The notes beneath the pieces are model-generated. The model ran no database searches. It saw only the letters and a list, made by a program, of their open reading frames with translations, and had not been told where the DNA came from. The position numbers were made by a program, and so were the translations under genes. A DNA stretch of 64,000 nt, taken from Rufibacter sp. DG15C. GTDB lineage: Bacteria > Bacteroidota > Bacteroidia > Cytophagales > Hymenobacteraceae. Positions 12,351 to 54,828 of the stretch are shown piece after piece. The stretch is from positions 3,348,001 to 3,412,000 of the forward strand of contig NZ_CP010776.1 in the NCBI RefSeq assembly GCF_001577755.1, read 5' to 3'. Positions within the stretch are counted from its first letter, which is position 1; each line of letters begins with the position of its first letter.

Positions 12351-12402
12351 AGAAATCCGTTTTTGGCCTGTTTTAAAGAAAACAGGCCAAAAACGGATTT
12401 CT
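12351..12402. repeat. Intergenic palindrome, copy 4, with extended arms
   Basis: The core arms CGTTTTTGGCCTGTTTT / AAAACAGGCCAAAAACG flank AAAG, and pairing continues outward for seven more bases (AGAAATC / GATTTCT). It sits between the MATE and K+-channel genes, both on the minus strand. Confidence 0.85.
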
Positions 12403-13838: not shown

Positions 13839-14253
13839 TTGTAATAGAATAAGAAATTCAGGATAAGACAATGTCATGCTGCAAAGTTTCTAGAAGTGAA
13901 ACCGCAGATGCAAGAGATAAGGAAGAGGACGTGCCCTGTTATTGGAAGCGGGCAGCTACTACAATCATGTGCGTACGCTTAGCTGACTGCAAGTATATAT
14001 AAATTTTAGGAGAGGGAACAGGAAGGATTAATCTTTTTATGGGCACGTTACCTTAGAGAAGCGTTGGCGTGCACACCGTTTTTGGCCCGTTTTCCAGCAA
14101 ACACCCCAAAAACGAGTGTTGGGGGTTAAGGCCCATAGCTTCTGCCGCCCAGTTTCAGTTGAGTTCAAAAACTGGTGAAAGGGCAGTTGTTACATATTAT
14201 ATTTGCCTAAAACCGCCTGGCGTCTCTTGCCTCTAAAAACAGCGTTCCAACAC
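13839..14253. other. 415-base divergent intergenic region
   Basis: Upstream region of both the MATE gene (minus) and the pseudouridine synthase gene (plus). It holds palindrome copy 5; no other structure is recognised. Confidence 0.6.
14077..14114. repeat. Intergenic palindrome, copy 5
   Basis: CGTTTTTGGCCCGTTTTC / GCAAACACCCCAAAAACG around CA; the inner stem has mismatches while the outer seven bases pair exactly. Confidence 0.7.
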
Positions 14254-14977: not shown

Positions 14978-17900
14978 TCAGCTTCTTGTAAATACTAAGC
15001 GCGGCAAAATGATCCGGAACTCCTTGTTTTCTTCTTGGCAGTACCATACTACAATATGGGCTACCTCTGCTGAATTGAAAATGTACCCTTGGTGCTTAAC
15101 AAGCCTTAAGCGTTCTTTAAATTTGTTTGAGAATTTCACTACGAATTGTCCGTCAAGTGAAAGTCCCTCTTCTATTTGTTCATTGCCAATTAGTGCATTA
15201 CCAGAGCGCACTTTCTTTACAGCTTTTTGGGTATCTAAATTCCGGAAGTAACTCAGAAACACGTCAGACATTCCCAATTCTAATTGAATAACATTTAAAG
15301 CAGGATAGATAGTAGAATCTGTGGCTATCTTCAAGTTCTGAACTGGGAACTGGTTAAAGTAGGTCTGATCTGTGTGGACGTGTAACGTTTTCTTAGCTCT
15401 AGTAATAGCTACATAAACTACCCTCTTTCTGGCTTCAGTGGTTAATTTAAAATTCTTAAGAAGTAAATACACATGATCAAATTCTTTTCCTTTGGCTTTG
15501 TGCATGGTTGATACCAATACTTTGTTACTGTCAGGGAAAAGATAATCCTCAGCCTTTGCTTCATGTAGATATGCTGTCCAGTCAGACCAATACCGCCGCT
15601 TGCCACTTGCTCTTTCAAAGACATTAATTACTTCTAGTGCAAGAGCCATATTAGCAGAGGTTGCAAACTCTTGTGCTACCTTTTTCTTATTTGCCAGCCA
15701 GGAATCATCAGTGATAAAACCTATTTCCTTTGAAATATCATGATAGATATAATGACTGAAAATTTTGAGCTCTAATAACTGGCAAAGCGAGTACCCATCT
15801 TGTGCTAACACTAACTTGGCTGGTATTTGGTGTTGCCTTAGAAGGCTTTGCACTAAAAGTGCTTCTTCATTAGTATGCGTCAATACGGCAGTAGTACCTG
15901 ATAAATCCTGGTTTAAAAGATCCTGTACTAGAGGGAGTACCAAGTCAGATTCTGGATGATGATTAATAATAACCAGTTGACCTAATTGAGTTTGTTGGGG
16001 CAATAGAGGCATGCCCGCCTTTAATCTTTCAGAAGCAAACAAGGACAAAAACTGATTTGAAAATTCTACCAGGTTTGCATGTGCTCTATAATTTTTGCTA
16101 AGAAAATAAGATTTGGCTTCTCTGTCTCTTTGGAAGCTGCGCATGAAAGCGACAGAGGATCCTCTAAATTCATAGATGTTCTGGTCATCATCCCCTACAA
16201 CAATCACCCGTACCTCCCCAGCTACCTCAATTAACGTCTTTAAAAAGTCGTATTCCTGTTGGCTTATATCCTGGTACTCATCTACTACAATTACGCTTTT
16301 ACTTTTTATCCTGTCTGAGGCTATTTCATCCTGCTGTAAGGCCAGCGTAGCCTGCTGTATAATACTGTCAGATTTCTCTAAATCACCTATTCTTCCTAAT
16401 AACTGGAATGCTAAACCATGATATGTAAATATATCAACATAGTGTCCTGCCGTACCTATTAACCCGTGTAGTCTTTCTTTAAATTCCATAGCAGCAGGCC
16501 TGGAAAAGGTGAGCATTAAGAATTGGTCGGCCTTAATGTCCTCCATCATCAACAAGGCCGCCACCTTATGTACTAGCACTCTTGTTTTCCCGCTTCCTGG
16601 TCCAGCGCCTATTAATATATTAGGGCTGGTTTTATCTTTTACCACTGCTAATTGCTCTTCAGATAAAGCCCCAAATATCTCTTTGAACTTCTTGTCGGTG
16701 ATGGGTCTCCTTAATTTTCCTCTTTGTCCCTGAAAATGCTTTTGTATAAATTGTTCATAGGGCATTTGGAAGTAATCATCCACAAACTTTAGAGCTTCAA
16801 CATGTTGATGCAATTGTTTGCGGGCATATTCGCCCATAATATGGATTTGCTCAGTTTTCTTCTCGTAGTGCCGTTCTAACTTGGCATAATCTTCCTTAGT
16901 GTACTGCTTTTTAGGGTTTTCTTCTACTTTAACAATGGTCATAGGATTGTAAAGCACAAATAGGCCGCCTTCCAATTTTATAGCACAAATGAAGTGCAAG
17001 TAAAGTAATACCCGTTCATATTCAATTAGCTCTGCATTTAATTGAAAAAGGCCGTTTCGCAAACTCTGCTGCATCTCCACCATAGAAAAAGCCAAAGCTG
17101 CTTCCTCTCTTTTTTGCTTACTAGCAATCAGAGCATTGTTTTGGTCAAGTAGCCAGCGGACCACGCCATTGGCTAAATCCTTTCTATGTCTTAAATCTTG
17201 TCTAATTTTTTCACGGTTCACTTTAAAAGTGATGCGATAAAATAAAGTTTGTGCTTCTAGCCGTTCCTTCTGGATGTAGTGTTGGTGCTGCCAAAAGTTT
17301 AGAAGGTTCTTTATAATCTCTATAGAGCTTACATCGCAGCCATGCTGCAATAAATGCTCATTAATTTCGCGCAGGTGAATTTGTATAACAGCAGGAGAAT
17401 CTTCTGTAGGTAGTAATGCATTCAACAAGGCATACTCTACTTGAGTACTCTGCTTAAAGCAACGCTCCGTATTTTTATTGCTTCTAGTAGGGTTAATTAA
17501 AGCTGTTAAGTCTTTAGTGTCACCTAAAAGTCCTAAGTCTTTAAAATGTAATAGGATACGTACTACTATATAATGATCAATACCCAAATCATCAGAGAGT
17601 TGGTCAGCATGGGTTGCGTCACGCGATATTAGGTATTGAAAGATACGAACGGCGTATTCCTCCTCTTTGCCGGGGAACCTGTAAAGATTATCTCTTATAA
17701 CTTTATTGGCGGCCTCTACATTTTTGACCAAAATACTGTTGGCAAAAATGCGGGGAGAGTTCATCTCCCTACGTAGATAACCTACATCTTCCAAGGCTGC
17801 TATGGCGGCTTTTACTTGGGTTTCCAAGTATTGGTTGTCGGTTTCCCAACCCGCACTTTTAGCTATCTCTAGTGCAGATTTAGAGAATTGTTTGCGCTTG

Positions 17901-19828
17901 AAATCTTTTACCGCCTTCCAAATCTGGCCTACTTCTTTTTGTGTGATTTTGGTTTGATTGAGTAGGTTGAAATGGGCATTTAAATCCTCTTCATCAAAGA
18001 GTAAATGGCAGTGTGCCTCCAAATCTGGCTTACGGCCGGCCCTTCCTGCTTCTTGTAGATAGTTTTCCAGAGAATCAGAAATATCATAATGCACCACCAT
18101 CTTTACATTCTCTTTGTCTACGCCCATCCCAAAGGCGGAGGTAGCCACAATGATGTTCATATGCCCGTGCATAAACGCGTCTTGCGTCCTTATCTTCTCA
18201 TCTACCTCCATTTGCCCATGATAGGCCGCGGCTCTAAACCCAGAGTTCTTTAGGGCCTCAGCTACCTTCACAGCGGTTTTGGTACGACTTACATAGACTA
18301 TAGAAGGTTCTTCTACTGTTTGCAGTAGATTCTGGAGTTTCTGCAACTTAATGTCTGGACTACTGGAAGGAGTGGCAAAATAGCTGAGGTTTTTACGGGT
18401 GGCTGAAGTCTGATAAATGTTTAAATGAATGCCTGCTTTTTGTTCAAAGTAATTTTGAATGTCTTGGATTACTTCTGGTTTAGCAGTTGCCGTAAAACAG
18501 GATACTGGAATAGGGGAGGGCAATTTCTTTGCTGCGGCAAGTTCTGTCAGAAACCTGCCAATGTATAAGTAATCTACCCTAAAGTCTTGGCCCCACGCTG
18601 AAAAGCAATGGGCTTCATCTATCACAAAACGGTCTATTAGTCTACCTTTCAGTAACGTCAAAATAGTCTTTGACCGTAAAGACTCAGGGGCTATATATAA
18701 CAATTGGGCGCCTCCTTCTCTCACCTTAGCAATAGTTTCAGCCCTTTCCAGCGGTGAAAGCAAGCCATTAATAAACACCGCATTGGTGATATCAAACCGG
18801 TGGCTTAGAACATCTACCTGGTCTTTCATGAGCGCTTGTAACGGTGATATGATCACCGTTAACCCACGCGTTGCTTCGCCCCGCATTAAGGCTGGTAATT
18901 GAAACGTAAGGGATTTACCACCACCGGTAGGAAAAATAGCCAACAAAGACTCTCCTTTCAAAGAGGCTTCTACTACCTGTTGCTGCAGGGGTATTTCTTC
19001 AGATTCGCTGAACTTCCTAAAGCCAGGGTACCCAAAGTACCGCTTTAACCCAGCCTGTGGTGTGTTATGCTTAGCACAGTACGCACAATCATCTTTATGG
19101 CAGGAAGTGCCTCTTAGCTGGTTAAGTAGTAATGGTAAATCTGGGTATTGGTGTAATAACCAGGGCGGTATGATGGAACTTGTATCGGGGGCTTTTAATA
19201 AGGATAGTACATAAGCTAACTGTACTGGCTTCTCTAAAATCAATGAATACAAGTCTGCATGTGTACAGACACCTTCATTAAAGTAAACAGAAATTTCTTC
19301 ACTTAGCTGCAGGAAATCAGGTGCCCGAGGTACATTGCCAAACAAGAGTTTAAAAAAACCACTGAATTTTCCGTCATGTTGTAACAAACCTTGTAAAATG
19401 TACTGCATGGAGCCATCCATTTGCAGCCAAGCCTGCAGGCAATCTTCCAACACTTCTTTAGCAAGTCCAGAATCATAGACTGGATTGTTGAATTCTGCTC
19501 TGTCTAAACGGTAGTCTTTTATTAATCTATGATATGGTTTGTTAGGAAAGAATAGGGGAGATAGTTGAAGAGTGTCAATACTGTTTTTTTGTAAAAACGA
19601 GTCTGCTATGCCAGCATTTTTTAAATACACCAAATCATGCAAAAGAATATTATGACCACACAAATAGGTGGCCTCTTTGCAGAAAACATCTAACTCATGA
19701 ATAGAAGTGCCATGCCAAGTCTTTTTCTGGTACAATGCCCCAATACTACTAATCTTATTTCTAGGCTGGGATATTTCTAAATCAAAGAAGGCAACCGCAT
19801 GTAAAGCCTGAATATGAGGATCATCCAT
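14978..19828 (-). CDS. Exonuclease-RecQ-UvrD fusion helicase (1616 residues)
   Basis: Three nucleic-acid modules in one chain. Residues 10-130 resemble a DEDD 3'-5' exonuclease (FFDLE with Asp16/Glu18, HNILLHD at 59-65, later Asp119). A Cys cluster follows (Cys243, Cys248, Cys251, His254). Residues 262-600 are a RecQ-type SF2 helicase: LKRYFGYPGFRKF, Walker A TGGGKS (301-306), DEAHCFSAWGQDFR (404-417), QEAGRAGRK (592-600), then winged-helix-like segments. Residues 1050-1600 are a UvrD/PcrA-type SF1 helicase: GAGPGSGKT (1074-1082), DEYQD (1193-1197), GDDDQNIYEFRGS, TMHKAKGKEFDHV, AITRAKK. Its DNA is visibly AT-rich (17 G/C in 60 at 16381-16440 versus 35 in 60 at 9001-9060), suggesting transfer. 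It lies just downstream of a type I R-M relic on the same strand. A role in repair or defence is inference. Confidence 0.9.
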   Translation of the reverse strand: MDDPHIQALHAVAFFDLEISQPRNKISSIGALYQKKTWHGTSIHELDVFCKEATYLCGHNILLHDLVYLKNAGIADSFLQKNSIDTLQLSPLFFPNKPYHRLIKDYRLDRAEFNNPVYDSGLAKEVLEDCLQAWLQMDGSMQYILQGLLQHDGKFSGFFKLLFGNVPRAPDFLQLSEEISVYFNEGVCTHADLYSLILEKPVQLAYVLSLLKAPDTSSIIPPWLLHQYPDLPLLLNQLRGTSCHKDDCAYCAKHNTPQAGLKRYFGYPGFRKFSESEEIPLQQQVVEASLKGESLLAIFPTGGGKSLTFQLPALMRGEATRGLTVIISPLQALMKDQVDVLSHRFDITNAVFINGLLSPLERAETIAKVREGGAQLLYIAPESLRSKTILTLLKGRLIDRFVIDEAHCFSAWGQDFRVDYLYIGRFLTELAAAKKLPSPIPVSCFTATAKPEVIQDIQNYFEQKAGIHLNIYQTSATRKNLSYFATPSSSPDIKLQKLQNLLQTVEEPSIVYVSRTKTAVKVAEALKNSGFRAAAYHGQMEVDEKIRTQDAFMHGHMNIIVATSAFGMGVDKENVKMVVHYDISDSLENYLQEAGRAGRKPDLEAHCHLLFDEEDLNAHFNLLNQTKITQKEVGQIWKAVKDFKRKQFSKSALEIAKSAGWETDNQYLETQVKAAIAALEDVGYLRREMNSPRIFANSILVKNVEAANKVIRDNLYRFPGKEEEYAVRIFQYLISRDATHADQLSDDLGIDHYIVVRILLHFKDLGLLGDTKDLTALINPTRSNKNTERCFKQSTQVEYALLNALLPTEDSPAVIQIHLREINEHLLQHGCDVSSIEIIKNLLNFWQHQHYIQKERLEAQTLFYRITFKVNREKIRQDLRHRKDLANGVVRWLLDQNNALIASKQKREEAALAFSMVEMQQSLRNGLFQLNAELIEYERVLLYLHFICAIKLEGGLFVLYNPMTIVKVEENPKKQYTKEDYAKLERHYEKKTEQIHIMGEYARKQLHQHVEALKFVDDYFQMPYEQFIQKHFQGQRGKLRRPITDKKFKEIFGALSEEQLAVVKDKTSPNILIGAGPGSGKTRVLVHKVAALLMMEDIKADQFLMLTFSRPAAMEFKERLHGLIGTAGHYVDIFTYHGLAFQLLGRIGDLEKSDSIIQQATLALQQDEIASDRIKSKSVIVVDEYQDISQQEYDFLKTLIEVAGEVRVIVVGDDDQNIYEFRGSSVAFMRSFQRDREAKSYFLSKNYRAHANLVEFSNQFLSLFASERLKAGMPLLPQQTQLGQLVIINHHPESDLVLPLVQDLLNQDLSGTTAVLTHTNEEALLVQSLLRQHQIPAKLVLAQDGYSLCQLLELKIFSHYIYHDISKEIGFITDDSWLANKKKVAQEFATSANMALALEVINVFERASGKRRYWSDWTAYLHEAKAEDYLFPDSNKVLVSTMHKAKGKEFDHVYLLLKNFKLTTEARKRVVYVAITRAKKTLHVHTDQTYFNQFPVQNLKIATDSTIYPALNVIQLELGMSDVFLSYFRNLDTQKAVKKVRSGNALIGNEQIEEGLSLDGQFVVKFSNKFKERLRLVKHQGYIFNSAEVAHIVVWYCQEENKEFRIILPRLVFTRS

Positions 19829-19900: not shown

Positions 19901-20413
19901 TTACGCCACCTCAAACGCCCACACCTTATACCGTTCCTCTGCCTGCTCCAGAATCTCATCCAAAATCTCCTGCAGGTCTGCCTTTACTTTGAACCGCTGT
20001 ACCTTTTTCACGGCTAGCTGCAGCTGGGCCTTGGTGTCATCTTTCTTATACCAGTCTGGTTGGGCCGCGCTTTTCTTAACCCCAGCCAGTATCTTTTTCA
20101 CCAGCTCTTTAATGAGGTCAAAGTCCTGCACGGCGTTCTGCAGAAGGTAGTTCCAGGTGGCTTCCCTGGGCAGGCGGTACACGTTCTTGACTCTGGTACT
20201 CCAGCTCGTCTTCCAGCACCTCACTCTGCTGGTGGGCTTCTATGTTGTAATACTCAGAAGCGGGTTCCAGAAAAGATAATTGAATCTCCTGTTTGCGTAT
20301 CTCAAAGCGCTCAGAGAGGTGCTTCACAAACAGCAGGGAGAGGACGTAATTTTGTACTGGTTCTCGGCCACGGCGCCGCGTAGCTCGTTGGCTACGTCCC
20401 AGAGTTCTTCCAT
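19901..20413 (-). pseudogene. Type I restriction-modification relic: HsdM N-terminus joined to HsdR C-terminus
   Basis: Read on the minus strand from an ATG at 20413, the first codons give MEELWDVANELRGAVAENQY, the typical HsdM N-terminal pattern. A shift near 20345 is needed to continue into FVKHLSERFEIRKQEI...PASEYY, and another near 20200 to reach NVYRLPREATWNYLLQNA, all still HsdM-like. After that the sequence changes to DLIKELVKKILAGV...PDWYKKDDTKAQLQLAVKK...ILEQAEERY, which resembles the extreme C-terminus of HsdR, and ends at 19901. The central HsdM, all of HsdS and most of HsdR are missing. Two frameshifts and a large internal deletion make it non-functional. Family matches are from pattern recognition, not a search. 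Confidence 0.6.
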
Positions 20414-20463
20414 TCGGTTTAAAGACCGTTTAGGCCTTTATATCTTGAAAATAGAATATGTAA

Positions 20464-20502
20464 GCGTTTTTGGCCTTATTTCTGGAAAATAGACCAAAAA
20501 CG
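20464..20502. repeat. Intergenic palindrome, copy 6
   Basis: CGTTTTTGGCCTTATTTC / GAAAATAGACCAAAAACG around TG; opposite centre orientation to copy 1 (CTGG rather than CCAG). Confidence 0.75.
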
Positions 20503-42530: not shown

Positions 42531-43123
42531 AGTTTCATTGTTTAGTGAATGGAAGCATTTAGACAGCTTCTTTGGCTTCTTACGTATGTGCAATAAAAAT
42601 GATATAGAAAGTATGCTATATGCTTTAATTATTTTAGAAAGGACCCTTGCGGTAAATACGTAACCAACCTTCCAGAAACCCGTTCATCTGAGGAGTATGC
42701 GTTCATAGCATCAATCAGCTAAGAAGGTAGAATAAGCGTTCTCCCTTAATAAATTCCTAAAATGATAAGCTCTATTTAGATATGACATTGATATCCTGAT
42801 TGACATGTTTTTTTTGGGTATTTATGGGTGAAACAGACTATAGTATCCAATAACCGGCGTGATTCAGCATAAAGGCATAACCACTGATGAGGAATTCGAC
42901 TTAGGTTTACAAACGGATGCTTTTGCTTTGCCTTTCGGGCAGACATTTATTACAGCGGGTCTTTTAAAGCAACTTATTACCCGAAACAGAACAGACCATC
43001 AATGAATAATTTGCCAATGGCGTACTTTTCGGTTTCACTCAATAAATTCAAATCCGTTTTTGGCCTCTTTTCCAGAAAACAGGCCAAAAACGGCGTTCTT
43101 AATCTGTACCGTTTCCCAGCAAA
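42531..43123. other. 593-base intergenic region
   Basis: Contains palindrome copy 12. A 48-codon open frame (GTG 42859 to 43005, starting VIQHKGITTDEEFDLGLQTD) has protein-like composition but no recognised family; it may be a gene remnant. Confidence 0.5.
43054..43093. repeat. Intergenic palindrome, copy 12
   Basis: CCGTTTTTGGCCTCTTTTC / GAAAACAGGCCAAAAACGG around CA; one inner mismatch. 30 bases before the lipid kinase start codon. Confidence 0.85.
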
Positions 43124-50836: not shown

Positions 50837-50878
50837 GTCGTTTTTGGCTTGTTTTCTGGAAAGCAAGCCAAAAACGAC
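50837..50878. repeat. Intergenic palindrome, copy 16
   Basis: GTCGTTTTTGGCTTGTTTTC / GAAAGCAAGCCAAAAACGAC; GGCTTG/CAAGCC is a paired variant and two extra flanking bases pair. Confidence 0.85.
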
Positions 50879-54780: not shown

Positions 54781-54828
54781 AAATTCGTTTTTGGCCTGTT
54801 TTCATGGAAACAGGCCAAAAACGAATTT
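54781..54828. repeat. Intergenic palindrome, copy 17, with extended arms
   Basis: AAATTCGTTTTTGGCCTG ... CAGGCCAAAAACGAATTT; five extra flanking bases pair on each side. It fills the whole 50-base spacer between two convergent genes. Confidence 0.9.

Follow-up and report, generated by a model that had tools for sequence, protein, structure and literature searches.

Exonuclease-fold domain, cysteine site, and RecQ- and UvrD-type helicase cores in one 1616-residue protein of Rufibacter sp. DG15C: architecture, distribution, and possible function

What a bacterium gains from a protein that joins two helicase motors and an exonuclease-like domain in one polypeptide, and how it came by the gene, are the questions raised by a locus in Rufibacter sp. 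DG15C. We analyzed a 64,000-nucleotide stretch of contig NZ_CP010776.1 (hereafter the window) in which this gene lies, and compared it with relatives in genomes, plasmids, and viral contigs.

Domain architecture

The open reading frame is intact and begins with ATG; its domains, together with other features of the window, are listed in Table 1. Searches against Pfam gave four matches above cut-off: DEAD (E 1.6e-29, residues 280-456), Helicase_C (E 2e-23, residues 494-599), UvrD-helicase (E 4e-34, best stretch 1056-1146), and UvrD_C (E 2.9e-19, residues 1427-1485). The first 260 residues matched no Pfam family. For conservation we used an alignment of 82 full-length sequences, comprising the window protein, three genome loci, eight plasmid loci, 69 loci from the collection genome_contigs, and one viral contig. 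All four exonuclease carboxylates and the tested ATPase residues of both helicase cores are present in every one of them (81 relatives plus the window protein), which argues that the architecture did not arise by chance; with the frame intact and the same layout throughout the aligned set, a chance or artefactual origin was ruled out. The initial annotation had proposed an exonuclease-like domain, a cysteine cluster, a RecQ helicase, and a UvrD helicase in this one chain, and Pfam, NCBIfam, fold comparison, and conservation all agree with it. Plasmid-borne relatives are labeled in RefSeq only as “RecQ family ATP-dependent DNA helicase”.

Table 1. Features of the window, in window positions.
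Feature	Position	Strand	Basis or remark
Whole gene: exonuclease - Cys site - RecQ - winged-helix block - UvrD, 1616 aa	14978..19828	-	
DEDD-fold exonuclease domain, residues 1-162: D16, E18, N60, D65, D119; Asn114/Asn115	19343..19828	-	model, VIA-align, conservation, profile match
Helical region with four-Cys site, residues 163-278: C188, C243, C248, C251	18995..19342	-	
RecQ-type SF2 helicase core, residues 261-645	17894..19048	-	Pfam, NCBIfam, motif residues 82/82
Predicted winged-helix block, residues about 630-967	16928..17941	-	model of residues 600-1060
UvrD-type SF1 helicase core, residues 1054-1490, short motif spacing	15359..16669	-	
C-terminal region, residues 1491-1616, fold unassigned, weakly conserved	14981..15358	-	
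Type I R-M scrap (HsdR C-terminus; HsdM-like fragments, shifted frames)	19901..20437	-	72 bp upstream of gene, same strand
Palindrome copies	12358-12395, 14077-14114, 20465-20502, 43055-43092, 50839-50876, 54786-54823 and others		

The RecQ-type core also passes the NCBIfam model recQ_fam (TIGR00614) with 282.2 bits against a cut-off of 219.8, and its DEAH box (D404, E405, A406, H407) and the arginines of its GRAGR motif (R596 and R599) are found in 82 of 82 sequences. Its closest solved helicases are bacterial RecQ, followed by human RECQ5 and BLM; the helicase core of WRN is also among the solved matches (E 2e-37). The same genome holds three more strong RecQ-core matches. In the UvrD-type core, six residues of Walker A, the DExxD box, and further motifs (K1081, D1183, E1184, Q1216, R1248, and R1477) are likewise invariant (82/82). 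DNA helicase II and PcrA are its closest solved relatives, with Gabija GajB further down (E 1.6e-16). Its motif spacing looks short for a UvrD helicase (1135 to 1183; 1246 to 1441), and the 1B and 2B inserts may be less than full size. Run on the whole protein, PADLOC matched mostly DpdF models in the RecQ part and GajB models in the UvrD part, and no single model among the best 25 of 68 listed covered both cores.

Between the two motors, a structure model of residues 600-1060 (pLDDT 81.2, pTM 0.60) supports two winged helices, and the order of predicted helices and strands suggests that two further winged-helix units may be present. Residues 187-298 of this model match CAP, CodY, and PadR proteins (Z about 8 to 9.9) and residues 101-174 match PerR (Z 8.4) and Fur (Z 7.5), so that the modeled winged helices after the RecQ core resemble transcription-factor folds; the Z values of the matches listed (7.4-9.9) are modest by the tool's own note. 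Foldseek on the same residues gave a best E of 1.4e-3 and otherwise weaker values, with low TM. The C-terminal region beyond the UvrD core is absent in one relative (L011).

Exonuclease-fold domain and cysteine site

Residues 1-278 were modeled with AlphaFold from 61 sequences (window and fetched loci), giving a mean pLDDT of 92.5. Searches of Pfam and of PDB sequences with the N-terminal domain returned nothing significant, and plain Foldseek with the model had no match at E <= 0.001; the call of an exonuclease fold is based on VIA-align, which realigns Foldseek candidates, together with a profile link. Among the 50 VIA-align matches listed, the RNase H-like DnaQ fold is present with Z 10.3-13.2 over 115-222 residues. 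The best solved relative is S. aureus DinG (Z 13.2, 217 residues aligned, rmsd 4.0), followed by the DnaQ domain of S. thermophilus (Z 11.6), E. coli Pol II (Z 11.1), T7 DNA polymerase (Z 11.1, 21% identity), and RNase T (Z 10.6). The profile link is to the exonuclease domain of T7-like phage polymerases, the sole family met by sequence profile for this domain (hhalign 96.8%, E 2.2e-10, over 104 columns that span Exo I and II only). These polymerase relatives are seven viral proteins (L127-L133), one of which, checked against solved chains, matched T7 DNA polymerase at E 4e-77; six of the seven, without L128, were used in the polymerase alignment.

Five residues of the predicted active site (D16, E18, N60, D65, and D119) are invariant in all 82 full-length sequences. 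Four of them, D16, E18, D65, and D119, are the metal-binding carboxylates of the three Exo motifs, and the loss of exonuclease residues in homologs that the initial annotation had considered was not seen. Because most loci were fetched with patterns around GHN..HD and PYHRLVKD, the invariance of N60 and D65 is favored by the choice of loci, whereas D16, E18, and D119 lie outside these patterns. DEDDh enzymes carry His five residues before the last Asp of Exo III (HxAxxD) and DEDDy enzymes carry Tyr four residues before it (YxxxD); this His or Tyr positions the attacking water. The T7-like polymerases have YxxxD in 6 of 6 sequences. In the helicase family the motif reads NNPxxD or NDPxxD, with neither the DEDDh His nor the DEDDy Tyr: 80 of 82 sequences have Asn, and the other two Ser, at the position five before D119, and at the position four before it 75 have Asn and seven Asp. 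To our knowledge, such an Asn-type fifth residue matches no described DEDD group. As judged from its residues, then, the metal site is intact and the fifth residue is non-standard. The initial description as a DEDD exonuclease stands for the fold and the carboxylates and fails for a standard DEDD enzyme, given Asn at the His and Tyr positions. With Asn in place of the water-positioning residue, the exonuclease may be weak or dead, and we speak of a putative nuclease. The Asn-type site would offer a direct test of the role of the fifth residue in DEDD enzymes.

The helical region that follows contains a fourth conserved cysteine, C188, beside C243, C248, and C251. All four occur in 80 of 82 sequences, and one sequence lacks C243 only. 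In a member from an Aliarcobacter plasmid (L040), C188, C243, and C248 are lost together, and joint loss is the pattern expected of a structural metal or Fe-S site; the cysteines may thus be ligands of a metal, such as zinc, or of an Fe-S cluster. This plasmid member (L040 9857-14653) keeps the exonuclease motifs though the aligned Cys cluster is missing. The cluster is also unaligned in three cyanobacterial members (L196, L197, and L198, two of them nearly alike), which keep DxE, GHN, and NNPxxD and have cysteines at other positions; a relocated site is possible in these three. Canonical RecQ proteins have a four-Cys zinc site (RQC) directly after the core. Here, C607 is the one position from 600 to 1130 at which half or more of the 82 sequences have Cys; up to residue 1130, then, the core is not followed by the canonical RecQ zinc cluster. 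The conservation pattern therefore bears out the remark, made before any comparison, that a Cys cluster before rather than after the RecQ core is unusual.

Distribution and genomic neighborhood

Full-length relatives were found in three of 58 relatives searched. Only one of 15 congeners carries the gene, at another place, and 14 are without it. Among genomes of completeness at least 90, carriers number 15 of the 291 others searched in the order (with the gene split or partial in two) and 14 of the 391 others searched in the phylum. The family as a whole is large: genome_contigs, with one genome per species, yielded at least 595 matching stretches, and in at least 547 the encoded sequence is related to the N-terminal region. 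Of the best 80, 69 lie in full-length proteins, from Bacteroidota, Bacillota, Lentisphaerota, Balneolota, and Aminicenantes; the other 11 were dropped for want of an ORF of at least 1480 aa (contig ends or split genes). Three loci (L059, L065, and L088) have two ORFs or an internal deletion and look frame-shifted or deleted, through either sequencing error or decay. Scans of genome_contigs and viral_contigs with the single protein detected no relative, whereas alignment-based scans did. No near DNA match was found in E. coli genomes, a search that covers close relatives only.

The gene tree mixes Bacteroidota and Bacillota, with 6 changes of phylum label against a least possible 3; it was built with FastTree and has long branches, which leave its deep nodes unsure. 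The window protein groups with Cesiribacter (support 94) and not with the copy in its own congener (G004), which is 63% identical and lies more than 500 kb from the best match to the pseudouridine-synthase gene that flanks the gene in the window. In a second congener (G013), the flanks are kept, with MatE and pseudouridine-synthase genes on one side and an alcohol-dehydrogenase gene on the other, and the interval between them measures 3.1 kb, compared to 7.3 kb in the window, and contains a symporter and an outer-membrane protein gene. For a third (G012, 18 kb fetched), the left flank alone was seen, with other genes beyond.

In nine plasmid records, 80% or more of the protein is covered at a single place; plasmid hosts are from Bacteroidota, Campylobacterota, and Alpha- and Gammaproteobacteria, with Bacteroides finegoldii among them. 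On the Aliarcobacter plasmid the gene adjoins parAB, with replication genes near. Nine predicted viral contigs also carry relatives; the end of the contig truncates one of these, and another has a shortened ORF. They are IMG/VR contigs, within which host DNA is possible. None of 50,697 phage records has a place that covers 80% of the protein. The wide vertical distribution with the same neighbors that the initial annotation had weighed was not found, as carriage is patchy and the neighbors vary. Our best reading of this patchy and partly mobile distribution is horizontal movement as one gene.

Base composition fits this picture less generally. The gene has a GC content of 40.4% (GC3 38.5%), compared to 52.2% in the 10 kb to its left and 47.8% in the 10 kb to its right, and there are further AT-rich stretches elsewhere in the window. 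Across 65 loci (those with less than 6 kb of flank were omitted), gene GC is below that of the flanks in 39 (Wilcoxon p 0.11). The observation that the gene differs from its neighbors in composition thus holds in this genome and not as a family property, and AT-richness as a family-wide mark of foreign DNA is unsupported. The dead type I restriction-modification (R-M) system reported beside the gene shrinks to a remnant: a scrap of about 0.5 kb adjoins it, with a T1RH-like_C match (E 7.9e-8) and HsdM-like fragments in shifted frames that were judged by eye, and a whole system is not there.

No convincing att-like repeats surround the gene, and the longest direct repeat, a candidate att site, was rejected as part of a genome-wide palindrome. 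This is a 38-base near-perfect palindrome (CGTTTTTGG ... CCAAAAACG) with 14 copies in the window at up to 2 mismatches, against 0.01 expected, and 704 copies in the whole 4.14 Mb genome at up to 1 mismatch, against 0 for a reversed control. Related copies occur in congeners, and one copy folds as a full hairpin.

A partner gene was sought among 559 neighbor ORFs in 92 loci. No family recurs, and a fixed partner was rejected; the largest cluster, of ABC ATPases, comes from 9 loci at varying positions. Restriction-type genes were searched with a panel of queries, one of them taken from a test locus (L160), and lie near 6 of 29 loci (window included) compared to 0 of 34 control stretches, 20 of which are from genomes without the gene (Fisher p 0.007). 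The remaining 23 loci had no panel match, and the R-M scrap of the window was unmatched at E 1e-6. Two of the six loci have weak or generic matches (L165, HsdR query E 8e-10; L231, HNH), and setting them aside leaves 4 of 29 (p 0.04). When the controls are restricted to the 14 stretches from carrier genomes, p rises to 0.08 with six loci and to 0.19 with four. An excess of restriction genes near the gene is suggested; it is soft, and weakened by the stricter counts.

Individual loci illustrate the possible association. At L160 (754-12746), an operon-like run of HsdM, HsdS, and two GmrSD-type ORFs lies downstream of the gene in the same orientation and begins after 112 bp. L172 has a GmrSD-type ORF 238 bp upstream. 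Downstream of the gene, again on its strand, lie an HNH protein at L231 and an HsdR-like protein at L232. PADLOC and Pfam scans covered 132 of 163 test neighbors (17 genomes) and 132 of 150 control proteins (14 carrier-genome stretches). PADLOC matched 201 models among the test neighbors and 14 among the controls, figures that count models and not proteins, as one protein can match many. Of the test members, 4 matched GmrSD-type models and 2 to 4 matched models of type I methyltransferases; control matches included PglZ, PD-Lambda-1, and others, with no GmrSD or type I R-M. Immediate neighbors were taken from 82 loci (135 of 137 proteins, after two fragments of the focal gene were removed), and these matched 80 PADLOC models, 74 of them in one protein each. 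Among the best 25 of 134 Pfam families listed for these 135 proteins, most are ordinary, with many housekeeping families; Fic (3), McrBC, MrcB, and TOTE primase (1 each) appear, and no phage structural or plasmid replication family does.

On the viral contigs, where selected ORFs were scanned, DNA methylase or restriction genes lie beside the gene on at least four of nine (L126, L233, L236, and L240), and a ResIII-domain protein is nearby on another (L237). On L126 (427-15067), the homolog adjoins an N6/N4 DNA methylase, with a GpA-type terminase some 7.5 kb off and transporter genes on the other side, and the contig looks like a prophage edge. On L238 (28-8093), two large serine recombinases lie directly beside the homolog. 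The suggestion of a defense or mobile-island origin gains some contextual support from the plasmids, the viral contigs, and the restriction genes; it is unproven, and its defense part is weakened by the stricter counts.

Possible functions and likeness to known systems

The reading we favor, to which we give an even chance, is that the protein is an ATP-driven helicase-nuclease with RecQ and UvrD motors that travels as one gene and most likely acts against invading DNA. For the function by itself, defense or the processing of foreign DNA, we hold the balance to be equally poised. RecQ and UvrD helicases translocate 3'-5' along the bound strand, and DEDD exonucleases trim strands from the 3' end, so that motor-fed 3' trimming is the simplest reading of the combined domains. 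In the mechanism that we infer, including its polarity, substrate, metal, nuclease activity, and defense role, a cysteine-based module (zinc or Fe-S) would keep the exonuclease-fold domain beside the RecQ motor. The machine would load on DNA ends, gaps, or forks, the two motors would separate the strands, and the exonuclease domain would trim the freed 3' strand. The protein could in this way serve against phage or plasmid DNA, either alone or by finishing DNA cut by neighboring restriction enzymes.

The same domains could also belong to a DNA-repair or fork-rescue enzyme without a defense role, a bacterial functional analog of human WRN gained by some lineages. WRN likewise has its exonuclease ahead of RecQ in a single chain, and the immediate neighbors are mostly from ordinary Pfam families (best 25 of 134 listed). 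In fold, the N-terminal domain comes closest to DinG, which is a helicase-nuclease of repair type (PMC12525004). We nevertheless regard this account as rather unlikely, since carriers make up a few percent of genomes, 14 of 15 congeners do without the gene, the genome already has its three other RecQ-core matches, and the gene is carried on plasmids and viral contigs, with restriction genes as neighbors at some loci. An unlikely role, for its part, is that of a factor that has lost nuclease activity, in which the N-terminal domain serves to bind or guide 3' single strands and the work is left to the motors, for example to strip protein or to unwind foreign DNA for another nuclease; this would fit defense or repair. 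The Asn residues that replace both the DEDDh His and the DEDDy Tyr speak for a dead exonuclease fold, and a DinG subgroup with a pseudo-exonuclease domain (PMC11981726) is a precedent. Nonetheless, all 82 sequences, from several phyla, retain the four carboxylates, and a domain that only bound DNA would probably have varied at these positions.

Carriage on mobile DNA could instead mean that the protein serves the plasmids and phages themselves, in replication, establishment, or counter-defense. The plasmid copies fit such a role, above all the Aliarcobacter copy beside parAB and near replication genes, as do the prophage-like edge with a terminase (L126) and the serine recombinases beside the gene (L238). 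Against it stand the 50,697 phage records, with 0 places covering 80% of the protein, and the 135 immediate neighbors, whose best 25 of 134 listed Pfam families include no phage structural or plasmid replication family; we consider this role distinctly improbable. At the other end, a helicase-nuclease directed against invading DNA might represent a new family of single-gene immune machines, with two motors and an Asn-type DEDD subtype, that destroy invading DNA without partners. This stronger form of our favored reading is itself somewhat unlikely. If the protein is defensive, it would be a compact candidate system, of which PADLOC matches only the parts, mostly to DpdF or GajB and one core each.

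Among the open-access matches listed in literature searches, PMC9122126, PMC11981726, and PMC5512222 included, no description of this architecture was found. In its likely working the protein resembles helicase-nucleases of the WRN, DinG, or RecBCD kind, and it has the defining features of none of them. Two defense systems share one core each with it. In Gabija, the OLD-family nuclease GajA is encoded next to GajB; GajB resembles the UvrD part (E 1.6e-16), and a scan of ORFs near the gene in the window showed no GajA-type neighbor, nor was there a recurrent partner in the 92 loci. In Dpd, the likeness is of DpdF models to the RecQ part. The proofreading domain of T7-like polymerases is related through the profile link and the fold match (Z 11.1), but is attached to a polymerase and has YxxxD, in contrast to the helicases and the NNPxxD or NDPxxD found here.

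ExoDinG (DinG with a DEDDh exonuclease and an XPD-like SF2 helicase) likewise joins an exonuclease domain and a helicase in a single chain, with the best fold match (Z 13.2); it has one XPD-type helicase, whereas the present family has RecQ plus UvrD, with the catalytic His replaced. WRN consists of a DEDDy exonuclease, RecQ, RQC, and HRDC, and is alike in placing the exonuclease domain ahead of a RecQ core in one chain, with cores that match at E 2e-37. Unlike WRN, the family adds an SF1 motor, places a Cys site ahead of the RecQ core, and has Asn for the catalytic Tyr, and it lacks the RQC zinc site after the core that also marks canonical RecQ proteins; HRDC was not listed by Pfam. RecBCD and AddAB combine two motors or motor folds, UvrD-type included, with a PD-(D/E)XK nuclease in several subunits. 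They share with the present protein two motors, one of UvrD type, and a nuclease (here putative) for DNA ends, but are multi-subunit and RecQ-free, in contrast to a single chain with a DEDD fold and RecQ, for which Pfam scans gave no PD-(D/E)XK nuclease domain. If its N-terminal domain is a nuclease, the protein would be a single-gene counterpart of RecBCD and other multi-subunit machines, and the coupling of its two motors could be studied within one polypeptide.
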